Below, one piece after another: positions 28,364-63,460 of a stretch of DNA of 64,000 nucleotides. The notes beneath the pieces are model-generated. The model did not search any database and was not told the DNA's origin. It saw only the letters and a list, made by a program, of their open reading frames with translations. This DNA comes from Candidatus Borkfalkia excrementavium (GTDB lineage Bacteria; Bacillota; Clostridia; Christensenellales; Borkfalkiaceae). Position 1 is the first letter of the stretch. Each line of letters starts with the position of its first letter. The DNA is taken from assembly GCA_019115945.1 (NCBI GenBank), contig DXCO01000037.1, positions 1 through 64,000 on the forward strand. Direction: 5' to 3'. The position numbers were made by a program, and so were the translations under genes.

Positions 28364-28394
28364 TTGACGATTTTTCTCGGGGGGGGGGTATAAT
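28364..28394 (+). promoter_or_regulatory. Sigma70-like promoter with G10 tract in the spacer
   Basis: TTGACG (28364-28369) ATTTTTCTC G10 TATAAT (28389-28394); spacer 19 nt. Confidence 0.65.
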
Positions 28395-28493: not shown

Positions 28494-29444
28494 TCAATTT
28501 TTGATTTTGTCGATATTCGGAAAGGTTTTTGCCAGGTCGAACGGATCAAAATTATAAAAAGAAGTTTTTTCGATCCCCAATTTTTTATAATCGGAAGGAG
28601 AACATCCGTGCTCGGCGCGGAAGTGTTTATACAGGTTGTTTTCCGTACGGAAACCTGTCAGGTTTGCGATCTCGCTGATGGGCAGCCGCGTCGTTGCGAG
28701 CAGATATTCCGTTTGTTTCAGGCGGTAATAGTTGACGATCTTCATGACCGTCATGCCCGTCGCGTTCCGGAAAAGTTTCTGCGTGTAAGACGGGGTGATC
28801 CCGATAAATCGTGCGATATCCTCCACCTCGATGTCTTCCGCATAATGCGAGCCGATATATTCCATTCCGTGATTTATGTAACTGTTCGTCGAAATTTTCA
28901 AATGGTTCGTTCTGCATTTGCAGAGAGAAATAAAAAGTTGTTTGATGGAAATTTCATAATCCATTTCAAAAAATTCGTTTTCCATCCCTTTTTTTCGCGC
29001 GTCAAGAATGTTCAGAAGATAGGTCAGCGTCTGGCGCACGTTGTTCGTGTCCGAAAAAATCATGACGGAATTTTCCGACGACATGATGTGTTTCAGCGAA
29101 GGATAACAGGAAAATTCCGGATTGCCGACGATATAATCGTCCACGGGCAGATTTTCGTTGGGCGTGGCAAGTTCAAGGACCAAAAGTTCTATGTCGTCCG
29201 ATTTTGCCACCAGCCTGTGAAATTTGTTTTTTCTGATCAGCGCGAACTGATTCGGGACGAGGGAAAAGATCCCTCCGTCTTTTTCCGTAATATCCATTTT
29301 GCCCGATACCAGATAGGCTATTTCTATGTTCGCATGCATATGATAGTTCATGGTAAAGGATCTGTTATAAAATATTTTGATATAACTTTTCGGAATGACC
29401 ACCGAACTGAATTCTGTCCATTTCCCGTTAAAAAATGTACTCAT
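28494..29444 (-). CDS. AraC-family transcriptional regulator
   Basis: N-terminal cupin (MNYHMHANIEIAYLVSGKMDI), C-terminal double HTH (EDIARFIGITPSYTQKLFRNATGMTVMKIVNYYRLKQTEYLL...ISEIANLTGFRTENNLYKHFRAEHGCSPSDYKK). Confidence 0.9.
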   Translation of the reverse strand: MSTFFNGKWTEFSSVVIPKSYIKIFYNRSFTMNYHMHANIEIAYLVSGKMDITEKDGGIFSLVPNQFALIRKNKFHRLVAKSDDIELLVLELATPNENLPVDDYIVGNPEFSCYPSLKHIMSSENSVMIFSDTNNVRQTLTYLLNILDARKKGMENEFFEMDYEISIKQLFISLCKCRTNHLKISTNSYINHGMEYIGSHYAEDIEVEDIARFIGITPSYTQKLFRNATGMTVMKIVNYYRLKQTEYLLATTRLPISEIANLTGFRTENNLYKHFRAEHGCSPSDYKKLGIEKTSFYNFDPFDLAKTFPNIDKIKN

Positions 29445-29450
29445 GATTTT

Positions 29451-29479
29451 ATTATACATGCAGATTTCTTATTTGTCAA
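29451..29479 (-). promoter_or_regulatory. Promoter of the AraC-family gene
   Basis: On minus strand TTGACA-17 nt-TATAAT. Confidence 0.7.
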
Positions 29480-29603: not shown

Positions 29604-31661
29604 ATGGAATTGAATTTTGAATATGAAAACGTTAAACTCGATTTTGAAATAACACAGGACAGGATCGTACGAAAGCCGAGGCAGGATTTTGTCTGTGCGG
29701 ATACAGAACGGGCGCAGTCCCTTGCAGAGATCTGCGAAGTTCAGATCCGGGGAAGGATGACGCGCGGGCATATGGGGGCACGGCATCTGCAAAGTTCCGA
29801 AAGCGGCCGTTTCCGTTACGTTGCGCATGCGATCGAAAAGGGGGAGCGCGGCGCGCTTCTCACCATCACGCAGAGGAGCGATCTTGCCGAACTGAGATCT
29901 TTCTTTTTCGTGCCGAAGGGAACGGGCACTCTCAGAACGTGGCACGAAATCGAAAATATCGGCGCGCAGCCGTTTACTCTGGAATACATAGGCACGTACG
30001 GCGAATTGATGATGACCGAGCCGAAAACGTTCGGCGAGACGGAATTCTGGCTTCCCACCAACGGTTCGTATTGCGAATGCCAGTGGAGCAGGGCGCCTCT
30101 ATCCGTCTACGGCGTATTCGGCGGACACAATATGAAGAGCCAGAAAAAACTGTGCATATCGAATACGGGCGCATGGTCTACAAAGACGTATCTGCCGATG
30201 GGGGCCGTCAAAGACAGAAATGGCGCTTTTACGATGTGGCAGATCGAGGCGAACGGCAGTTGGTCTTACGAATTGAGCGATCTGTACGATTCTCTGACGC
30301 TGCATCTGAACGGCCCGACGTTCGAAGAGCATAACTGGCAGAAAACTTTGAAGCCGGGCGAACGGTTCGAGACGGTAAAGGCCGCCGTCACGCGCGGCAG
30401 AAGTTTCAACGAAGCGGCAGCCAACATGACCGCGTACCGCAGGGCGATCGTTGTAAATAACAGGCTCGCCGCCCCCGTGGTGTTCAATGAATACATGTAT
30501 GCGTCGTGGAATACCCCTTCGGAAAAAACGGCCTACGCGCTGGCGCCCGTAGCAAAGCGGTTCGGGGCGGATTATTACGTGATCGATTGCGGTTGGCACG
30601 ACGAAGAGCCCGATCCTTTTTACTATCTGGGGAGATGGGAAGAATCTGCTTCCCGTTATCCGGGCGGGCTGAAAAAAACGCTGGACTTTATCAGGGCACA
30701 GGGCCTTGTTCCGGGGCTTTGGATGGAACCGGAGGCCGTGGGAGCCAAGGGAGACGCGGCAAAACTGTATGAAGAGGACGCCTATTTCAGCCGCGGCGGT
30801 GCCGTGCTCGGCATTTCCGAACGGTATCAGTTGGATTTCAGGAATGAAAAGGTTTTTTCCCGTTTGGAAAAGATCGTCGGAAAACTTGTCGAAGATTACG
30901 GCGTCGGATATCTGAAACTCGATTACAACATCGAACCCGGCGTCGGCACCGACCGCAACGCGGAAAGTTGCGGCGACGGCCTTCTGGAACACAACAGGGC
31001 GTATCTTCGCTGGGTTTGCCGCCTGAGAGAAAAATATCCGTCTCTCGTGATCGAAAACTGCGCGTCGGGCGGCAACCGGATGGATTATCTCACGCTTGCG
31101 AACTGCGATCTGCAGAGTACGTCCGATCAGATCGATTACCGCGTCTATCCATATATCGCGGCAAACATGTTTTCCGTTCTGCTTCCCGAACAGGCGGCCG
31201 TCTGGGCGTATCCCGCGTCGCATGTGGATGAATCGCAGCCCGACCGCGAATGCGTGATCATGAACATGATCAACGGCCTTGCCGGCAGGATGCACCTAGC
31301 AAGCAGGCTCAACCTGCTCAACGAAGAGAACGGAGCGCTTGTGCGAGAGGCGTGCGAATTTTCCCATGAGATCGACGGTTTCAGAAAAAGAGCCTTGCCG
31401 TGGTTTCATAAAGATCTGCCCGCCGAAATGGACGCGGGGCAGGTCGTATTCGGAATGAGAGAGGGAGGCCGCCTGCTCGTTTTTGCCTACCGCATGCACG
31501 GAGAAGAGAAGATTTGCATAGACGCCGGAAGAGAGATCGGCAGCGCCGCCGTCGTTTATCCGAAAGACTCGCAGATCGGGCTGTCCGTAAACGGCGGCAC
31601 GCTATCCATGAAATTCCCGCAGCCATATATGGCGCGCGTGATAGAAATCAGATTCAAATAA
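29604..31661 (+). CDS. Alpha-galactosidase, GH36-like
   Basis: YVIDCGWHDEEPDPFYYLGRWEESASRYPGGLKKTLDFIRAQGLVPGLWMEPEAV; YLKLDYNIEPG; IENCASGGNRMDYLTL; STSDQIDY. Confidence 0.93.
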   Translation: MELNFEYENVKLDFEITQDRIVRKPRQDFVCADTERAQSLAEICEVQIRGRMTRGHMGARHLQSSESGRFRYVAHAIEKGERGALLTITQRSDLAELRSFFFVPKGTGTLRTWHEIENIGAQPFTLEYIGTYGELMMTEPKTFGETEFWLPTNGSYCECQWSRAPLSVYGVFGGHNMKSQKKLCISNTGAWSTKTYLPMGAVKDRNGAFTMWQIEANGSWSYELSDLYDSLTLHLNGPTFEEHNWQKTLKPGERFETVKAAVTRGRSFNEAAANMTAYRRAIVVNNRLAAPVVFNEYMYASWNTPSEKTAYALAPVAKRFGADYYVIDCGWHDEEPDPFYYLGRWEESASRYPGGLKKTLDFIRAQGLVPGLWMEPEAVGAKGDAAKLYEEDAYFSRGGAVLGISERYQLDFRNEKVFSRLEKIVGKLVEDYGVGYLKLDYNIEPGVGTDRNAESCGDGLLEHNRAYLRWVCRLREKYPSLVIENCASGGNRMDYLTLANCDLQSTSDQIDYRVYPYIAANMFSVLLPEQAAVWAYPASHVDESQPDRECVIMNMINGLAGRMHLASRLNLLNEENGALVREACEFSHEIDGFRKRALPWFHKDLPAEMDAGQVVFGMREGGRLLVFAYRMHGEEKICIDAGREIGSAAVVYPKDSQIGLSVNGGTLSMKFPQPYMARVIEIRFK

Positions 31662-46369: not shown

Positions 46370-47254
46370 TCAGGTCTTTACGCTGTTGCGGTATTGCGAC
46401 AGCGAAACTTTTGCATATTTTTCGAATGCTGTCGCAAAGTGAGAAGGGGAACTGAAATTGAGCATGTCCGCAAGTTGGGCAAACGTGTACTTGTTTTCGC
46501 GGATAAGTTTTTTCGCTTCCCGTATTTTCAGTTGCGAAAAATACTGAAAGATCGTCAGCCCCGTCTCCTTTTTGAAGCGGGTGCACAAAAAAGTTTTTCC
46601 GTAATTGAAAAAGTGCGAAATGTTTTCCAGATCGATCTTGTTATAGATATTCTGCGAAAGGTAATCTTTGACGGCGTCGACAATGGATTCGTTCGATTTC
46701 GTCTGTACGCCGATCGGCCGTTCAGGAGGGGCGGAAATTTCGTTTTGGGATCGGAGCAGTGTGATCAGCAGCATTTCAAGGTTCAGTTTGATCATCTGCA
46801 TGCCGCCGTACACGGGGCGCGGCAGAAGTTCGAGTTTTTTGTTTTTGGTGTAAAATGTGGGCAGATCGAACGTCTTGTCCGCTTCCGAGATGATGTTGGA
46901 AATATAATGTTTTACGTGAGGGTCGATTTTATATTTTTCCGCATAGTTTCCAAGGCGGTAGAGTGCTTTTGACATGCATACAAAACTGATGACAAACACC
47001 GAACAGGTTTTGCCGTTGGAAGATATTTTATGAAATACGTTCGGCTGATGGATGAGCATTTCTCCGCTTTTGAGTAATACTTCCGTATCGTTTTGCGTTA
47101 CGATGACTTCGTTTCCGTCGCAATAAACGATCTCCCAAAAATTGTGAGACTCGCCCTTGAATTTATAATTGGCGGGAAACTCAAAATAATGAATGGTGAC
47201 GATTTTTTGAATGTTCAGAACATTTTGGATCCTGTGCTGAAAAAATTCTTTCAT
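46370..47254 (-). CDS. AraC-family transcriptional regulator
   Basis: C-terminal HTH: IDLENISHFFNYGKTFLCTRFKKETGLTIFQYFSQLKIREAKKLIRENKYTFAQLADMLNFSSPSHFATAFEKYAKVSLSQYRN. Confidence 0.92.
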   Translation of the reverse strand: MKEFFQHRIQNVLNIQKIVTIHYFEFPANYKFKGESHNFWEIVYCDGNEVIVTQNDTEVLLKSGEMLIHQPNVFHKISSNGKTCSVFVISFVCMSKALYRLGNYAEKYKIDPHVKHYISNIISEADKTFDLPTFYTKNKKLELLPRPVYGGMQMIKLNLEMLLITLLRSQNEISAPPERPIGVQTKSNESIVDAVKDYLSQNIYNKIDLENISHFFNYGKTFLCTRFKKETGLTIFQYFSQLKIREAKKLIRENKYTFAQLADMLNFSSPSHFATAFEKYAKVSLSQYRNSVKT

Positions 47255-47291: not shown

Positions 47292-47323
47292 TTGACAATT
47301 CGGCTCGGGGGGGGGGGTATAAT
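47292..47323 (+). promoter_or_regulatory. Sigma70-like promoter with G11 tract in the spacer
   Basis: TTGACA (47292-47297) ATTCGGCTC G11 TATAAT (47318-47323); spacer 20 nt. Confidence 0.7.
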
Positions 47324-47467
47324 AGAGGAGTGTTTTGTACGAAGAGAGGAGATGTGGGAGGATTTTACTGAGCAAAAAGAGGGTGCTTTTATATTTCGAG
47401 TATCTGCGTTTTTTTCTTCAGTTTTCCTGTAAATAGTATAAATCCAAATGAAAAATTTGTCAATATT

Positions 47468-47533
47468 ATGCGAAAGAATCTGATAGTAATGCGAAATTTT
47501 ATGTATTGTCTTTTGAAAAATCTGACTTATAAT
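47468..47533 (+). promoter_or_regulatory. Promoter with tandem ATGCGAAA boxes upstream of the DUF4091 gene
   Basis: ATGCGAAA at 47468 and 47489 (21 bp apart); TTGTCT (47506-47511)-16 nt-TATAAT (47528-47533). Confidence 0.6.
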
Positions 47534-47558: not shown

Positions 47559-49289
47559 ATGAAATGGACAATCATTGACGGTTACACAAAATTCAGAGAA
47601 TATGAGGGTGTCGAATTCTTTTACAAGTTCGAAGAGAACTTCCGCGATAAAACCCCCGCGCTTCTTTCGGCGAAAAACGACGAGATCTGTTTTCAGGTTC
47701 TGATGATCGATGAAGAAGAGTTTGCGTTCACCTGCGGGAAAGAACCGTACTTTACCGTGCAGGGCCTGCTGCCCGTGTACAGGGTGGAGGTGCTTTTGGA
47801 GGACGGCGATGTCACGGCGGAATGTTTTCCCGAGGATTTTATCGACGATGACGACGGCCTCAGATATTCTGACATTCTTTTGAAAACGGAGCAAAAGCAC
47901 TGCGCGAAATACCAGCCGGGAATTCTGTTCGTAAAATTGAACGTCCCCGCAGGGGCAAAGACGGGCAGGCATAGCGGCATGATCAATATCTATTCGCGCG
48001 TCATGACTGACGACGAAAGACTTATAGAGAGCAAGGATTTTTCTTTTGACGTTTACGATTACGTGTTTTCTCCCGCAAGCGAACAAAAATTCTGCCTTGA
48101 CCTTTGGCAGCATTGTTCGAATATTGCAAGATATCACGAGGTGGGGCTGTTTTCGGACGAGCACTTTGCGATCCTGAAAAAATATGTGCAGAGTCTCGCT
48201 CAGTTGGGGCAGAAGGCGATCACCGTAGTGGCGAGCGACGCGCCTTGGTGCTCGCAGCGCGCTTACAACCATATTACGGGACAGTCGGATCTTTTCGAAT
48301 ACGCGATGATGCGTGCCGTTAGGGACAGAAACGGACAATTTGCTTTTGATTTTTCGCCCATGAAGAGGTACATAGATCTTTGTATGGATTGCGGCATCGC
48401 CGAAGAGATCGACGTATTCGGCCTGATCGGTATCTGGCAGGACGATTTCATGAAATTGGGCGACATCGTCGAAGGGGAAAAGGGCGCACCCCGCATCCGC
48501 TATTACGACGAGGCGGAAGGCGCGTTCCGGTACATGCGCAGAAAGGAAGAGGTGGAACTGTATCTGGAAGCGCTGTTCAGATTTTTCTCGGAAGAAGGGT
48601 GGCTGGAAAAAGTAAGAGTTATCGCTGACGAACCGGCAGAATGGGATTCTTATCTCGAAAAAAAGTGTCAGTTGGAAAAACTGCGGCCGAATATCAAATA
48701 TAAGACGGCCATCAACCATGCGGAAGCGCTCAAATACATCGCTCCCGAAAGTACGGATATCGCGCCTTTCATTCTGCTCTTCGGGGAAGATGCCGACGAC
48801 GTGATCGAATATAAGAAAGCCAACGAAAATTCCAAAGTTTATTATTATGTCTGCGGGGGGCCGTTGTTTCCCAACACGTTTATTCTTTCCTCTCTTCTCG
48901 AATGCAGGCTGATCCCGATTCTGGCAGAGTTCATGAATCTGGACGGCTTTCTGCGTTGGAATTATACGGTTTGGCCGAAAGACCCGCGTTCGCAGTTGCA
49001 TTATATGTTCCATTCGGGGGATTTGAACTTTGTCTATCCTTCCCGCGGCGGAGATGTTTTGCTGTCGTTAAGATATTTCGCGCTGAAAGCGGGCATCAAA
49101 GAGTTCGAACTTCTCAAAGAGGTGGGCGAAGAAACGAGACAGAAAGTTTACGATCTTCTGATCAAGGACAAAAAATTCTACATCCAACTCAAACATAAGG
49201 TCGCTTCGGAGTGTTTTTCGTTGGACGCAAAGGATTATGCTGAGGCAAAACGCATATTGCTGCAAGAAGCGGGCAAGAAATCTTTATAA
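47559..49289 (+). CDS. DUF4091-domain (glycoside-hydrolase-like) protein
   Basis: N-terminal beta domain followed by TIM-barrel-like region (CLDLWQHCSNIARYHEVGLFSDEHFAIL...VRVIADEPAEWDSY...FLRWNYTVWPKDP). Confidence 0.7.
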   Translation: MKWTIIDGYTKFREYEGVEFFYKFEENFRDKTPALLSAKNDEICFQVLMIDEEEFAFTCGKEPYFTVQGLLPVYRVEVLLEDGDVTAECFPEDFIDDDDGLRYSDILLKTEQKHCAKYQPGILFVKLNVPAGAKTGRHSGMINIYSRVMTDDERLIESKDFSFDVYDYVFSPASEQKFCLDLWQHCSNIARYHEVGLFSDEHFAILKKYVQSLAQLGQKAITVVASDAPWCSQRAYNHITGQSDLFEYAMMRAVRDRNGQFAFDFSPMKRYIDLCMDCGIAEEIDVFGLIGIWQDDFMKLGDIVEGEKGAPRIRYYDEAEGAFRYMRRKEEVELYLEALFRFFSEEGWLEKVRVIADEPAEWDSYLEKKCQLEKLRPNIKYKTAINHAEALKYIAPESTDIAPFILLFGEDADDVIEYKKANENSKVYYYVCGGPLFPNTFILSSLLECRLIPILAEFMNLDGFLRWNYTVWPKDPRSQLHYMFHSGDLNFVYPSRGGDVLLSLRYFALKAGIKEFELLKEVGEETRQKVYDLLIKDKKFYIQLKHKVASECFSLDAKDYAEAKRILLQEAGKKSL

Positions 49290-49421: not shown

Positions 49422-51218
49422 GTGGCAGGGTTCAAAAAAATTGCAAAACTATTGGTAGCCGCCGCGTTGGCGGGAGCGTTCGTATTTTCCGCAGCGGCAT
49501 GTACCGCGCCCACCAACCCCGATTCGGGCTTGGTAGAACCAGTGGACCGGAACAGGACGCAGTTGTACGTAGGGAATTTTAACAGAGGTTACGGTGACGA
49601 ATGGATTCTCACCCTGAAAGAGCGGTTCGAAGAGTTTTATAAGGATAAGGAATTTGAACCGGGCACGGGAAAGAAGGGTGTCCAAATCATGGTGGATAAT
49701 CTCCAGGAAGCGGGAAATACTTACATCAACTCGATGAAAACTTCGAGGAATGCGGTCATCTTTAACGAACTCGTGTATTATAACGACTACGTGAACCAAG
49801 GGCTGGTCGCGCCGATCGACGATGTTGTCAAAGGCGATCTTTCCGTCTACGGGGATACGGGCACGATCGAGGACAAGATGTATGATCAGCACAAGAAATT
49901 TTATAAATCTATAGACGGGCATTATTACGGTATTCCGCACTATTCGTCATTTACGGGCATCATTTACGACGTGGATATGTTCGATAATGCGGGCCTTTAT
50001 TTTGCCTATGATCAAGAAAACAGCATGGATGGGTTTATCATCAATAAATCCGATCGCAGGTCTGCCGGTCCCGACGGAGAATATTGCCAGGTATGTGCCG
50101 CCAACGGATACAATTATTCCGCGCATAACTGTGACGACGGTCTGCCCGCCACGTATGATGAGTATTTTCGCCTCTGCGATTACATAGATGCAATGGGAGA
50201 TATGGCGACCATTTGGACGGGTACTCATCGCGCATATTATTTGGGTTATCTCCTGCGTTCTTTGGCTGTCGACTATGAGGGGATGGACCAAATTCTGCTC
50301 AATTATGATTTTTCCGGTACGGCGACAAATCTGGTGGAGAGCATCGATGCGGACGGTACCGTGCACAAGAGGGCCGCAACGCCCATCCAGAACAGCAACG
50401 GTTACGAACTGTATACTTCCGCCGGCAGATATTATGCGTTGGATTTTCTGCACAGGCTGATCTTCAACGAAGAAGGGAAAAGTTCGGGATACTGGTATCC
50501 GAACAGTTTCACCGGCGGTATGAGCCAGCTCGAGGCGCAGGACCTTTATCTGACGAGCGTGTATGAAAACGAGCGCATCGCAATGCTGTTCGACGGCATT
50601 TGGTGGGAAAACGAGGCGAAGGACACTTTCCGCGACATGTCCGTGGGCGACAGCAGCATGTCCCGTGAAAACCGCAGGTTCGGATTTATGCCTTTCCCCA
50701 AGGCGGAAGCAAAAGATGTAGGCGTCAAGAAAAATACGATGATGGATACCCTGTATTCCATGGCGTTCATCAACGCAAATTGCATGGACGATCCCGTAAC
50801 ATATGATTTGGCCAAAAAGTTCCTGATGTTCGCATATACGCAGGAGTCTTTGGAAGAATTTACTGTTGTTACAAGTGCGCCGAAGAGTCTGAAATATGAA
50901 ATCAGTTCGGAAAATCAGAAAAAGATGTCTTACTTTGGCCGCAGTGTATGGAACAACTATAAAAATTCTGATGTTGTATATCCTATCAGCACCAATTCGC
51001 TTTATCTGAACAACCAAAGTTCTTTTGAATATGCAAGTACTTTCAGAACGGAAGTGAACGATGTCGTCTATACGGATATCGGCTCGGCAATGTATAACAA
51101 CGGTTTCACCGCAAAACAGATGTTTGAAGGAATTGCAGCCGTCAACAGCAAGACAAGTTGGGAAAATGCGTACGAACAGTATTTCGAAAAGGATACAAAA
51201 ACTTCCGTCCTTTCTTAA
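49422..51218 (+). CDS. Extracellular sugar-binding lipoprotein of an ABC transporter (module B)
   Basis: Lipobox FSAAAC; GHYYGIPHYSSFTGIIYDVDMFDNA; DDGLPATYDEYFRLC; DGIWWENEAKD. Confidence 0.88.
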   Translation: MAGFKKIAKLLVAAALAGAFVFSAAACTAPTNPDSGLVEPVDRNRTQLYVGNFNRGYGDEWILTLKERFEEFYKDKEFEPGTGKKGVQIMVDNLQEAGNTYINSMKTSRNAVIFNELVYYNDYVNQGLVAPIDDVVKGDLSVYGDTGTIEDKMYDQHKKFYKSIDGHYYGIPHYSSFTGIIYDVDMFDNAGLYFAYDQENSMDGFIINKSDRRSAGPDGEYCQVCAANGYNYSAHNCDDGLPATYDEYFRLCDYIDAMGDMATIWTGTHRAYYLGYLLRSLAVDYEGMDQILLNYDFSGTATNLVESIDADGTVHKRAATPIQNSNGYELYTSAGRYYALDFLHRLIFNEEGKSSGYWYPNSFTGGMSQLEAQDLYLTSVYENERIAMLFDGIWWENEAKDTFRDMSVGDSSMSRENRRFGFMPFPKAEAKDVGVKKNTMMDTLYSMAFINANCMDDPVTYDLAKKFLMFAYTQESLEEFTVVTSAPKSLKYEISSENQKKMSYFGRSVWNNYKNSDVVYPISTNSLYLNNQSSFEYASTFRTEVNDVVYTDIGSAMYNNGFTAKQMFEGIAAVNSKTSWENAYEQYFEKDTKTSVLS

Positions 51219-51229
51219 AGAGGTGCATT

Positions 51230-52207
51230 ATGCAGGAAAACAATACGGCCGCAGCGGTCGGAGCGGAGCATGCGGAGGGCCCTCAGAAGCCCTCCCCCAA
51301 ACATAAGGGGTTTGCGACCGCAAAGAAAAAAGATCTCATTTTTTATTGTATCCTGAGCGCTTTCCCGATCGCGCAGTTCGCAATCTTTTACGTAGGCGTC
51401 AATTTCAACTCTTTTCTTCTGGCGTTCAAAAGTTACGATGCCGTAACGGGCGTCATGTCGTGGGTCGGGTTCGACAACATAGTGGATGCATTCAAAGCCA
51501 TGACGACCCAGTACGAGTTGACCGTCGCAGCCAAAAATTCGATCATCGCGTATTTATGCGGATTGTTGATAGGCGTGCCTCTGGCTCTGCTGTTCAGTTA
51601 TTACATTTATAAAAAAATGTTCCTGTCCGGATTTTTCAGGGTCGTTCTGTTTCTGCCTTCCATTCTCTCGGCGATCGCGATGTCCGTCATGTTTTATTAT
51701 TTTGCCGAGCGCGCCATTCCCGAATACTTGGAGACTCTGTTCGGCAGCCAGATCAGGGGGCTTCTGTCCAACCCGGATACGGCCTTTGCTACGCTGATAT
51801 TTTATACCAACTGGATCGGGTTCGGCACGAGCACGCTGATGTATTCCGGCGCGATGAACTCCATCTCCGAATCGGTAGTGGAAGCGGCGGAACTGGACGG
51901 GGCGTCGCCGCTCCGCGAGTTTATATCCGTAACTCTTCCGCTCATCTATCCGACGATCGTCACCTTTCTGGTGGTCGGCGTCGCGGGGATCTTCACGCAG
52001 CAACTCAACATCTACAGTATGTACGGTACGGGAGCGGAAACGTATCTGAATACGTTCGGTTATTATCTCTACCGTGAAACGAGTAAAATGCATATGTCCG
52101 ATTATCCGCTTTTGAGCAGCCTCGGCCTGTTGATGACGATCGTCGCCGCGCCGCTCACATTGATCGTAAAATATCTGCTCGAAAAATTCGGGCCGAGCGT
52201 GGATTGA
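51230..52207 (+). CDS. Sugar ABC transporter permease (MalF/UgpA type)
   Basis: EAAELDGASPLREFISVTLPLIYPT EAA motif. Confidence 0.92.
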   Translation: MQENNTAAAVGAEHAEGPQKPSPKHKGFATAKKKDLIFYCILSAFPIAQFAIFYVGVNFNSFLLAFKSYDAVTGVMSWVGFDNIVDAFKAMTTQYELTVAAKNSIIAYLCGLLIGVPLALLFSYYIYKKMFLSGFFRVVLFLPSILSAIAMSVMFYYFAERAIPEYLETLFGSQIRGLLSNPDTAFATLIFYTNWIGFGTSTLMYSGAMNSISESVVEAAELDGASPLREFISVTLPLIYPTIVTFLVVGVAGIFTQQLNIYSMYGTGAETYLNTFGYYLYRETSKMHMSDYPLLSSLGLLMTIVAAPLTLIVKYLLEKFGPSVD

Positions 52208-52217
52208 GGAGGCGGAT

Positions 52218-53123
52218 ATGGAAAAAATTACTTCAAAAAATCGCAGGCACTCTTCCACGAAAATTCTGGGGATCGTTTTGGGGATTATTCTCGCACTATA
52301 TACGCTTTCGCTGTTTTTCATGATCGCATGGGGAATGATGACTTCTGTCAAACACAGGCTCGATTTTATCCGCAACATCATCGGCTTTCCCGGCAACGGC
52401 TACGGCTGGCAGTGGAACAATTACGTTACAGCGTTCAACAGTTTCAGCGTCACGGTCGAGTCTGGAGCAGGGTTCAGGACGGTGCTTTTGGGAGAAATGT
52501 TCCTCAATTCGGTGCTTTATGCGCTGGGCTGTGCGATCGCCTCAACGACGTGTGCCTGTTTTATGTCTTACCTTACGGCACGATTCCCTTACAAATTTTC
52601 GAAAGTCGTGTATGCGGTCGTCGTCGTCGCGATGATCGTGCCCATTGTAGGAAACCTTCCCTCCGAAATACAGATGTCCCGTACGTTCGGTCTTTTCGAT
52701 ACTTTTTACGGCATCTGGATCATGAAGGCGAATTTTCTCGGTATGTATTTTCTCGTATTCTATGCGGTGTTTCGTAGCGTTCCCAAAGATTACGCGGAAG
52801 CGGCAAAAATTGACGGGGCCGGCAATTTTACCGTCCTGTTCAGGATTATGATGCCCATGGTCGCAGGGACCTACTTTACTGTCCTATTGCTCAACTTTAT
52901 AGCGTTTTGGAACGATTATCAGGTCCCGCTCATTTATCTGCCGACGCATCCCCCGGTCGCATTGGGCCTTTATAAGTTCAATTTTGCGTCGTCTGGATCG
53001 CTCAGCAACGTTCCCATGAAGTTGGCGGGCAGTTTTTTGGTCCTATTGCCTGTTTTGGTGGTCTTCCTCGCTTTTCATAAGCGGCTTTTGGGAAAGATCC
53101 ATATGGGTGGGCTGAAAGAGTGA
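52218..53123 (+). CDS. Sugar ABC transporter permease (MalG/UgpE type)
   Basis: EAAKIDGAGNFTVLFRIMMPMVAGTYFTVLLLNFIAFWNDYQVPL; terminal GGLKE. Confidence 0.92.
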   Translation: MEKITSKNRRHSSTKILGIVLGIILALYTLSLFFMIAWGMMTSVKHRLDFIRNIIGFPGNGYGWQWNNYVTAFNSFSVTVESGAGFRTVLLGEMFLNSVLYALGCAIASTTCACFMSYLTARFPYKFSKVVYAVVVVAMIVPIVGNLPSEIQMSRTFGLFDTFYGIWIMKANFLGMYFLVFYAVFRSVPKDYAEAAKIDGAGNFTVLFRIMMPMVAGTYFTVLLLNFIAFWNDYQVPLIYLPTHPPVALGLYKFNFASSGSLSNVPMKLAGSFLVLLPVLVVFLAFHKRLLGKIHMGGLKE

Positions 53124-53184: not shown

Positions 53185-56100
53185 ATGAAGAATCAATCGC
53201 ACACCGCGCGTTTCTCGGTTAGGGCGTTTTGGCTCGTCCTGCTCTGTGCCGTCCTTGCGCTGACGGCCGCGGCATTCGTGTTTTTGCCCCGCCATACGGC
53301 GAAGGCGGAACTTGTGGGGGCCGATCTCGCCACGGAATACGCATACGGCACCCGCCTTACGGTGCCGCAGGCGACGATGGTCGTAGACGGGAAACAACTT
53401 TCCACCGAAAGCATCGTCAATTTTCCCAGCGGTCTTTCCTATCGGAATACGACCGTCGATCTCAACGAGATGGGGGAATATACCGTCGAATACCGCGCGC
53501 AGGACGGGGCGGCGCAGTACAGGGAATACAAAGAATTTTCCGTGTACCGCAACCTGTTTGATGTAGAAGGCGGCATCGGCGCATCGGCAAGTTATGCGCC
53601 TTCACCGCTCGCGCCCGATACGCAAGGCATCAACGTAAAACTGACGTCGGGCAGCACCTTTTATTATCATCGAGTCATAGACCTCACTGAGTTGGACGGA
53701 AATTCTCCCTTCGTATCCGCGTTCATTTCTCCTGAAAAGCAAGGGGAAATGGATGGATACACTCTGTATTTCCGCCTGACCGATCTGTATGATCCGGATA
53801 ATTACGTAACTTTCCGGTGCAATGGATCGCGCGCGGGCATTCAACATGGTGTCACGTATATTCTTTGCGGCGGCTCGGAACAGTCGCTCACCGGTGTGGA
53901 ATGGGGCTGGGGGCGCGTACATGTCAACAACATCTACGGTTATCCCGTAAACTGTTCGTTTTATGCGCAGGCTCCCTCAGGCACAGCGCCTGAAAACGAT
54001 CTATTAACCCTTTATTTTGATAACGAGTCGATGGCCGCAAAAGGGGATCTGTCCGGATCCATGATCGTGGATTTAGACGATCCGACCTATTTTACCGATC
54101 CGTTTTTGGGCTTTACGACGGGAGAAGTGACGCTTTCGATCTGGGCGGACGATTTTATTAAAAATTCGTTCGGGCTGGAAATTACTTCGATCGCCGGGCA
54201 CGATCTCTCCGCTGAACGGCTGGGCGACATCGAAGGCCCCGAAATCACCGTCGATTTCGGCGATTACGACCAATTCCCCGTCGGCCTTGCCGGATTCGAT
54301 TATCCGCTCTTCAACGCAACTGCGTACGACCTGTATTCGGGAGAGACGGATGTGACCGTAAAGGTGTATCAGAACTACTATGACGAGAAAAAATACGACT
54401 GCTATGTGGAAAACGGCGTGTTTAAACCGGAAGTCCCCGGAACATACACCGTCGAGTACAGTTCAGTCGACAATGTCGGCAATCCTTCAACGGAGATATT
54501 CGACATCGATGTTCTTGCATCAGCGCCCGCTGTCGAGATTTCCGTCGACGAACAGGCGCTGACGAAATCGGGCTTTGTCGGCGCGCGCATCCCGATCGAG
54601 GAAGCGTCCGTTTCCGGCGGCATCGGGCAGACTTCCGTCCGCGTCGAAGTGACGGACGGGCAGGGGAATGCGGTCGAATCGGACGGCACCTTTTTCGTGC
54701 CTGCCGCTGTCGGAACATATAAAGTGAAATATATCGCTTCCGATTTCGTCAATCAGCAGGATCCTTATGAATATACGGTCAGCGTTACTGTCAGCGATAA
54801 GCCGGTGTTTGAAAGTGACCCCGCGCTTCCCGAGGTGTTCTTTACCGATTCGGAATATACGCTCCCCGGTCTGTCCTCTTATACTTATGCAGGCGGCAAA
54901 CGTGAGGTCCCCGTAACGGTCAGCGTGGAAGACGCACAGGGCCTGCGCGAACTCGGTTCCGAACGGACCGTTCAGTTTACCATAGGTTCGGATTCTGACG
55001 AGGTAACGGTCATTTACACCGCAAAGGACGGCAGTGCCGAAACGAACGTATCGTATACGGTGAAATGTATCCGCGCAAAGAATGCGGAAGGTCGCCTTGA
55101 ACTTGTGAACTATTTCGAAACGGAAGGATTTACCGCCTCGGCCGGGAACGATTATACGACTTTTTCTGCCGACGGCAACGCGGAATCTGCCTCCCTTCGT
55201 TTCCGCAATCTTCTGCTCGACGACAATCTCGACGTGAATTTCAGGGTCGACACGGCACAGAACAAGTTTGAATCCGTCACCATCCGCCTTACGGATATTA
55301 CGGGGCAGACGAGCGTTGCCGCCGTACTGACGGCGGAGGGGACTTCCACGCGCCTGAGAGTGGGAACTATGTCCATGCTCATGAACCTGAGTTTCAGCGA
55401 TCCGCTCAGAAGCGAATACCGTTTTGTCTTTGACCAGGCAAATGCAAGGCTGACGGCAGATGGTATCAATTATCTCCCCGTCCTTACAACGGAAGACGGA
55501 TCTCCGTTTACCGGCTTTGAGGGTCATATGGCATATCTCGAGATCGAGATTGCGGGTATCACGGGCGCAAGCGCGCTGCAGATCGTTTCCATCAATTCGC
55601 AGGAAATTTCGAATACTCCGCTCGACATCGTGCGTCCGAGAATTTATATTGAGGGTGTCTACGGCGGCGCGCATGAACTCGGAGAAGAAATCATGCTCAA
55701 CCGTGTATATGCGGCAGACGTCGTCGATCCCAATCCTTCGCTTACAATACGGGTAACGGGGCCCGACGGGCAGGCGCTCGTCAGTACGGACGGCGAAACG
55801 CTCGATAATGTTCCCGTCGTATACGGCCAGACCATCCGACTGGAAAAATACGGCACCTATCAGGTGATCTACACCTCTGCCGACGCTTCGGGCAGGAGCG
55901 AAAGGACGGTCTCATATACCATTTCCGTCATTGACGACGTGGCGCCTGTGATCACGCCGCAGGCAAATATGAAGGAAAACTATACCCTCGGCGAGACGGT
56001 CGTCATACCGAAGATTACGGTTACGGACAACGAAACTGCGGCGGAAAACATTTCCGCCAAAAAATACGTCGTGCTTCCCACCGGCCGTATTGCGGAACTT

Positions 56101-56211
56101 CCGGGCAACTCGTTCATCGCTTCGTATGCAGGCAAATACACGGTGCGCTATGTCGCCTATGACGAAGCGGGCAACCAGGCGCTTTACGAAATTTCGTTCA
56201 TGTGTGCATAA
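53185..56211 (+). CDS. Large secreted Ig-like/beta-sandwich multidomain protein (module B, 1008 aa)
   Basis: Signal peptide AFWLVLLCAVLALTAAAFVFLPRHTAKA; same domain order as the 35148 protein; no C-terminal anchor seen. Confidence 0.85.
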   Translation: MKNQSHTARFSVRAFWLVLLCAVLALTAAAFVFLPRHTAKAELVGADLATEYAYGTRLTVPQATMVVDGKQLSTESIVNFPSGLSYRNTTVDLNEMGEYTVEYRAQDGAAQYREYKEFSVYRNLFDVEGGIGASASYAPSPLAPDTQGINVKLTSGSTFYYHRVIDLTELDGNSPFVSAFISPEKQGEMDGYTLYFRLTDLYDPDNYVTFRCNGSRAGIQHGVTYILCGGSEQSLTGVEWGWGRVHVNNIYGYPVNCSFYAQAPSGTAPENDLLTLYFDNESMAAKGDLSGSMIVDLDDPTYFTDPFLGFTTGEVTLSIWADDFIKNSFGLEITSIAGHDLSAERLGDIEGPEITVDFGDYDQFPVGLAGFDYPLFNATAYDLYSGETDVTVKVYQNYYDEKKYDCYVENGVFKPEVPGTYTVEYSSVDNVGNPSTEIFDIDVLASAPAVEISVDEQALTKSGFVGARIPIEEASVSGGIGQTSVRVEVTDGQGNAVESDGTFFVPAAVGTYKVKYIASDFVNQQDPYEYTVSVTVSDKPVFESDPALPEVFFTDSEYTLPGLSSYTYAGGKREVPVTVSVEDAQGLRELGSERTVQFTIGSDSDEVTVIYTAKDGSAETNVSYTVKCIRAKNAEGRLELVNYFETEGFTASAGNDYTTFSADGNAESASLRFRNLLLDDNLDVNFRVDTAQNKFESVTIRLTDITGQTSVAAVLTAEGTSTRLRVGTMSMLMNLSFSDPLRSEYRFVFDQANARLTADGINYLPVLTTEDGSPFTGFEGHMAYLEIEIAGITGASALQIVSINSQEISNTPLDIVRPRIYIEGVYGGAHELGEEIMLNRVYAADVVDPNPSLTIRVTGPDGQALVSTDGETLDNVPVVYGQTIRLEKYGTYQVIYTSADASGRSERTVSYTISVIDDVAPVITPQANMKENYTLGETVVIPKITVTDNETAAENISAKKYVVLPTGRIAELPGNSFIASYAGKYTVRYVAYDEAGNQALYEISFMCA

Positions 56212-63433: not shown

Positions 63434-63460
63434 TTGACGGGGGGGGGTATGGTTTATAAT
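63434..63460 (+). promoter_or_regulatory. Promoter-like sequence with G9 tract in the spacer
   Basis: TTGACG (63434-63439), G9 tract 63439-63447, TATGGTT, TATAAT (63455-63460); spacer 15 nt. Confidence 0.5.

Follow-up and report, generated by a model that had tools for sequence, protein, structure and literature searches.

We identified a promoter with a poly-G spacer at 47292..47323 (+ strand) of the window, the whole 64,000-nt stretch of DNA that was analysed. The element is probably a sigma-A-type promoter in which a slippable G tract determines the distance between the −35 and −10 boxes, and which serves as a switchable second, distal promoter of a GH123-ABC sugar-uptake operon. The poly-G promoter motif in the window is confirmed as real and beyond chance: its pattern occurred three times in the 64 kb and not once in 100 dinucleotide-preserving shuffles of the window. 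The three promoter tracts (at 47307, 28 kb and 63 kb) are the window's only runs of at least 7 G on either strand.

The poly-G promoter at 47 kb and its locus

A sequence-only reading of this DNA had described the element as TTGACA...G11-TATAAT with a spacer of 20 nt, and this proved correct to the single base. On the + strand, TTGACA-ATTCGGCTC-G11-TATAAT comprises the −35 box TTGACA (47292-47297), a fixed 9-nt segment ATTCGGCTC (47298-47306), the G11 tract (47307-47317) and the −10 box TATAAT (47318-47323). As in promoters of the porA type, the tract lies wholly between recognisable −35 and −10 boxes, and a spacing of 16-18 nt is reachable by one to three G changes; the spacer is 20 nt at G11, 18 nt at G9 and 17 nt at G8. 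The same design had been reported from the letters at 28.36 kb, and we found it there as TTGACG-ATTTTTCTC-G10-TATAAT (28364..28394, + strand; spacer 19 nt). Because the fixed part is 9 nt in each, both sites reach 17 nt at G8. Their flanks are unlike, again as first described, and gave no mutual blastn match at E 1e-3. A third poly-G promoter, which the sequence-only reading did not include, is TTGAC-G9-TATGGTT-TATAAT (63434..63460, + strand), and it precedes an ABC exporter ATPase gene (63576). Given the tract architecture, invertible-promoter phase variation is not needed to account for the finding.

The position given for the 47 kb promoter, between a divergent AraC gene and a DUF4091-type gene, also held. 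The AraC-family regulator gene is at 46370..47254 on the − strand (Pfam HTH_18 E 4e-14, HTH_AraC E 3e-11), and the first gene downstream is a GH123 catalytic-domain gene of the DUF4091 type (47559..49289, + strand; Pfam GH123_cat E 1e-74), with the −10 box ending 235 nt before its ATG (47559). Three further genes follow on the + strand: a lipoprotein resembling a sugar ABC substrate-binding protein (49422..51218; lipobox in the translation, only a sub-cutoff NCBIfam match), an ABC permease (51230..52207; Pfam BPD_transp_1 E 4e-15 on the ORF 51158-52207, the start at 51230 being the ATG taken after the end of the preceding gene) and a second sugar-type ABC permease (52218..53123; sub-cutoff NCBIfam matches to sugar permeases). 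The 47292 promoter would feed GH123, the binding-protein-like lipoprotein and the two sugar-type permeases. The GH123 product has no evident signal peptide, and the second gene of the operon encodes the lipoprotein. In the 61 genomes searched for orthologs of the GH123 locus, only distant homologs were found, and GH123 is not a conserved gene of the genus. A large secreted protein is encoded after the permeases in the same direction (53185-56211), with an OmpL47-type domain match just above the cutoff. A riboswitch or other RNA element in the 235-nt leader was considered and rejected (fold z −0.58; no Rfam family above the cutoff).

Both flanking genes have predicted promoters of their own. 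The best araC candidate, TTGACA-17-TATACT (47435..47463, − strand; 11/12 consensus matches), is farther out than the poly-G promoter and faces it at about 110 bp; the poly-G promoter begins 38 bp upstream of the araC start codon (gene 46370-47254), and the G tract lies inside the presumed araC leader. The presumed proximal promoter of the GH123 operon is TTGTCT-16-TATAAT (47506..47533, + strand; 10/12 consensus matches). The two promoter-like sites therefore suggest an ordinary divergent AraC-regulated pair to which the poly-G promoter was added within the araC leader. As the GH123 operon has its own predicted proximal promoter (47506-47533), the poly-G promoter probably acts as an additional input. 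The sequence-only reading had instead proposed independent ON/OFF switching of glycan genes, a classical switch in which the poly-G promoter would be the main GH123-ABC promoter and alone decide expression. The promoter does face the operon, its boxes are near consensus, and a scan of the local layout found no terminator between it and the GH123 gene; however, a promoter-like site adjoins the GH123 gene and, with the araC promoter next to it, forms the arrangement usual for divergent genes, and the leader would be about 230 nt long, whereas at other poly-G sites a median of about 44 nt separates the −10 box from the start codon. We consider this proposal unlikely.

Recurrence of the motif and variation of tract length

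The genome from which the window comes (1.55 Mb in 42 contigs) contains 11 runs of at least 8 G. Seven of these are inside a promoter spacer; of the remaining four, one is by a contig edge, one closely follows a −10-like box and two are in other contexts. The idea that all long G tracts are promoters was rejected: it fits most tracts in this genome (7/11), but many tracts in relatives lie elsewhere. A G10 tract on another contig (L032, G000:C13:25823) is located in a long open frame, 733 codons from stop to stop in the fetched stretch, and could possibly be a coding-frame switch or a chance open frame.

A motif search of the genome and its relatives, which had been named as a check on the first reading, found recurrence. 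With one genome sampled per species, the strict motif was present in 28 of 101 genomes, namely that of the window, 18 of 39 congeners (Candidatus Borkfalkia), 5 of 21 genomes from elsewhere in the family and 4 of 40 from the rest of the order. Over these 101 genomes the motif gave 50 matches and the reversed control pattern gave 0. In other Bacillota, drawn evenly from the phylum, 7 of 298 genomes had the strict motif, with two control matches. A GTDB scan extended the range; among the matches listed were many gut Clostridia and Bacilli, and also Anaeroplasmataceae, Saccharibacteria, Streptobacillus, Spirochaetaceae and a Helicobacter.

Tract length differed between otherwise similar promoters. 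Two genomes of closely related species (G009 and G012) share a poly-G promoter downstream of an apparent EF-Tu gene and upstream of a lipoprotein gene, in an alignment of 97% identity over 531 bp; in about 235 aligned bp around the promoter, the only internal difference is G10 vs G9. The core TTGACAAAGTGCC is identical at three sites in three different gut genera, with G9 (L049), G10 (L009) and G11 (L074), and the first and last of these are 78.5% alike over 214 bp. All recorded tract-length differences are between species, and assembled homopolymer lengths may be off by one.

Homopolymer lengths are error-prone in short-read assemblies, and one tract of the genome is 23 bases away from the end of a contig, which might point to chance or to a sequencing or assembly artefact. 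The shuffles and the reversed controls over the 101 genomes gave zero matches, and assemblies made independently have the same architecture, flanked by real sequence on either side. For the motif itself, as distinct from exact lengths, chance and artefact are already refuted, and this explanation is extremely improbable. A G13 run on contig 32 of the same genome (L038, G000:C32:23-31) is 17 bases short of the contig end, where the assembly may have broken because of mixed tract lengths. Breakage at tracts with mixed lengths was rejected as a general signal: 2 of 31 sites were less than 50 bp from a contig end against 0.17 expected, too few.

Among the matches listed, the spacers of 153 distinct sites ranged from 14 to 20 nt. 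A 17-nt spacer was found in only 14 of the 150 sites of 14-19 nt (9%), vs 21 of 42 ordinary promoters (p 4e-8); the latter were TTGACA-TATAAT promoters in the same loci (n=42), whose spacers peak at 17-18 nt, and the GTDB scan pattern itself was limited to spacers of at most 19 nt, so the top of the spacer range is clipped. Such scatter would be expected of alleles taken as snapshots of a wandering tract. The part of the first reading that concerns a slippable promoter spacer was thus well supported by comparison, given the motif across species, the internal difference in length only and the spacers scattered around the optimum.

Genes downstream of the poly-G promoters (starts within 350 nt) began with a secreted or lipoprotein signal in 86 of 118 cases, vs 180 of 567 background ORFs (p 2e-16; signal sequence or lipobox called by a simple, crude rule, the sites not all being independent). 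The usual targets across relatives therefore seem to be mostly genes for lipoproteins and secreted proteins rather than glycan genes in particular.

Proposed switching and comparison with known systems

In the mechanism that we propose, replication slippage would add or remove single Gs; we infer this step, the observed length changes being those between species. Promoter strength would follow the spacer, 9 + n nt, and be best at about 17-18 nt. With this optimum, n = 8 or 9 would be ON and the assembled G11 (20 nt) weak or OFF, an assignment that derives from the spacer lengths seen at ordinary promoters of these loci. The ON state would supply GH123-ABC transcription independent of AraC, and in a population a minority of cells would express the uptake system in advance. 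The genome contains MutS and MutL genes; slippage would therefore be damped, and switching may proceed at moderate rates. Because these genes are present, loss of mismatch repair was rejected as the cause of instability.

The closest known counterpart is porA of Neisseria meningitidis. Its poly-G tract separates the −10 and −35 boxes, and 17 is the optimal spacing (PMC7864442, PMC2791445; citing van der Ende et al. 1995). The 47292 promoter resembles porA, as described there, in that poly-G is strictly between the boxes and its length sets the spacer, with an optimum of about 17 nt. It differs in its setting: porA encodes an outer-membrane porin of a Gram-negative pathogen, whereas here the promoter would be the second one of a Bacillota sugar operon and opposes an AraC gene. 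On its architecture, we provisionally assign the 47292 promoter to the porA-type spacer phase-variable promoters. The Neisseria genes opc and fetA also have a homopolymer in the core promoter (poly-C for opc) and length-dependent expression. The opc tract is placed over the −35 by PMC7864442 and between −10 and −35 by PMC2791445. Unlike it, the 47292 tract is poly-G and clear of both boxes. In the pili switch of Bifidobacterium breve, the tract is reportedly in the coding sequence, whereas the 47292 tract is in a promoter. That switch resembles the proposed one in being a replication-slippage ON/OFF of surface structures in a Gram-positive gut commensal, and differs in that the host is an actinomycete and the targets are pilus clusters (PMC9187656). 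In tprL of Treponema pallidum, poly-G is likewise in the promoter and its length alters reporter activity, but the tract overlaps the −10 and the authors exclude a spacing mechanism (PMC7864442). The nadA gene of N. meningitidis has a classical regulator and is modulated by repeat length as well, but the TAAA tract is upstream of the promoter and shifts operator spacing, not the core spacer (PMC2791445).

Spacer-length phase variation is described for Neisseria in the cited sources, and the same architecture occurs in roughly every second Borkfalkia species sampled and is scattered in other gut Bacillota. A survey of prokaryote homopolymers treated coding genes, in which poly-G was generally not over-represented (PMC2831843). 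A search of published open-licence papers found no account of promoters of this kind in Borkfalkia or other gut Bacillota, which is weak evidence of absence. The wider set of porA-like promoters in gut Bacillota is apparently undescribed; the kind is known, and what looks new is the host group, together with the positioning against AraC regulators. Tools that seek invertible promoters would miss poly-G spacer promoters. Because deep metagenomes that already exist allow tract lengths to be read, switching at the population level is directly testable in uncultured gut bacteria.

Placement against AraC genes and the 28 kb and 63 kb sites

The sister promoter at 28364 is preceded by a strong terminator with a 20-bp stem. 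It points antisense across an entire AraC-like gene (28494..29459, − strand; an ORF with AraC-type C-terminal sequence) toward a glycosidase gene at 29604, and no gene start is directly faced. The AraC-like gene (28494-29459), antisense to the expected transcript, has its own predicted promoter, TTGACA-17-TATAAT, at 29479-29451. Orthologs of the 28 kb glycosidase in the genus had at most 42% identity. This antisense course through an AraC gene, together with the promoter-like site of the GH123 gene itself, left the earlier claim of independent ON/OFF switching of glycan genes only partly supported.

At 47 kb, the poly-G promoter may hinder araC by colliding transcription or antisense RNA because it faces the presumed araC promoter about 110 bp away; the facing layout is observed, and the effect is what it would suggest. 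One slippage could then both lower the AraC regulator and switch on the sugar operon in the absence of inducer, so that a gut commensal would choose its glycan diet stochastically. This reading is tentative and somewhat doubtful; it draws on placement, against the araC leader at 47 kb and against the whole AraC-like gene at 28 kb. Among the loci examined, the AraC-facing topology of poly-G promoters was found only at these two window loci, and AraC antisense topology as a general rule was rejected since other loci did not have it.

The location of the tract within the presumed araC leader could also fit a mainly regulatory or structural role, as a protein site or G-rich DNA acting on araC whose length is unimportant. 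This is very unlikely: in many unrelated loci the tracts lie between near-consensus boxes at 14-20 nt, always in promoter direction with zero reversed controls, and most poly-G loci have no AraC gene like those of the window nearby.

A proximal promoter-like site is also present at the exporter gene (63576), and most of its orthologs inspected have a proximal TTGACA-TATAAT-like promoter. A poly-G promoter was found at this gene in four genomes: that of the window, G011, G026 and G049, the last from another genus. In the window, G011 and G026 it is additional and distal. The tract is G9 in G026 vs an interrupted GGGAGGGGGG in the recognisably similar promoter of G013, indicating that such promoters can freeze. 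The 47 kb promoter might accordingly be a relic, fixed at poor spacing with no switching and no effect, in line with the spacer lengths of 19 and 20 nt that the assembly gives for the window; however, the tract is pure and both boxes are intact in the window, and several loci and species retain the motif, which makes a relic quite unlikely. A slippable, switchable spacer remains the preferred reading. In G026 (B. stercoripullorum), the amino-acid ABC ATPase and exporter genes are adjacent, and the poly-G promoter lies in the gap. The window has those two genes separated by about 35 kb of glycan genes (27384-64346), with a poly-G promoter at each end. The glycan stretch at 27384-64346 looks like an inserted island, the short form being seen in only one relative.
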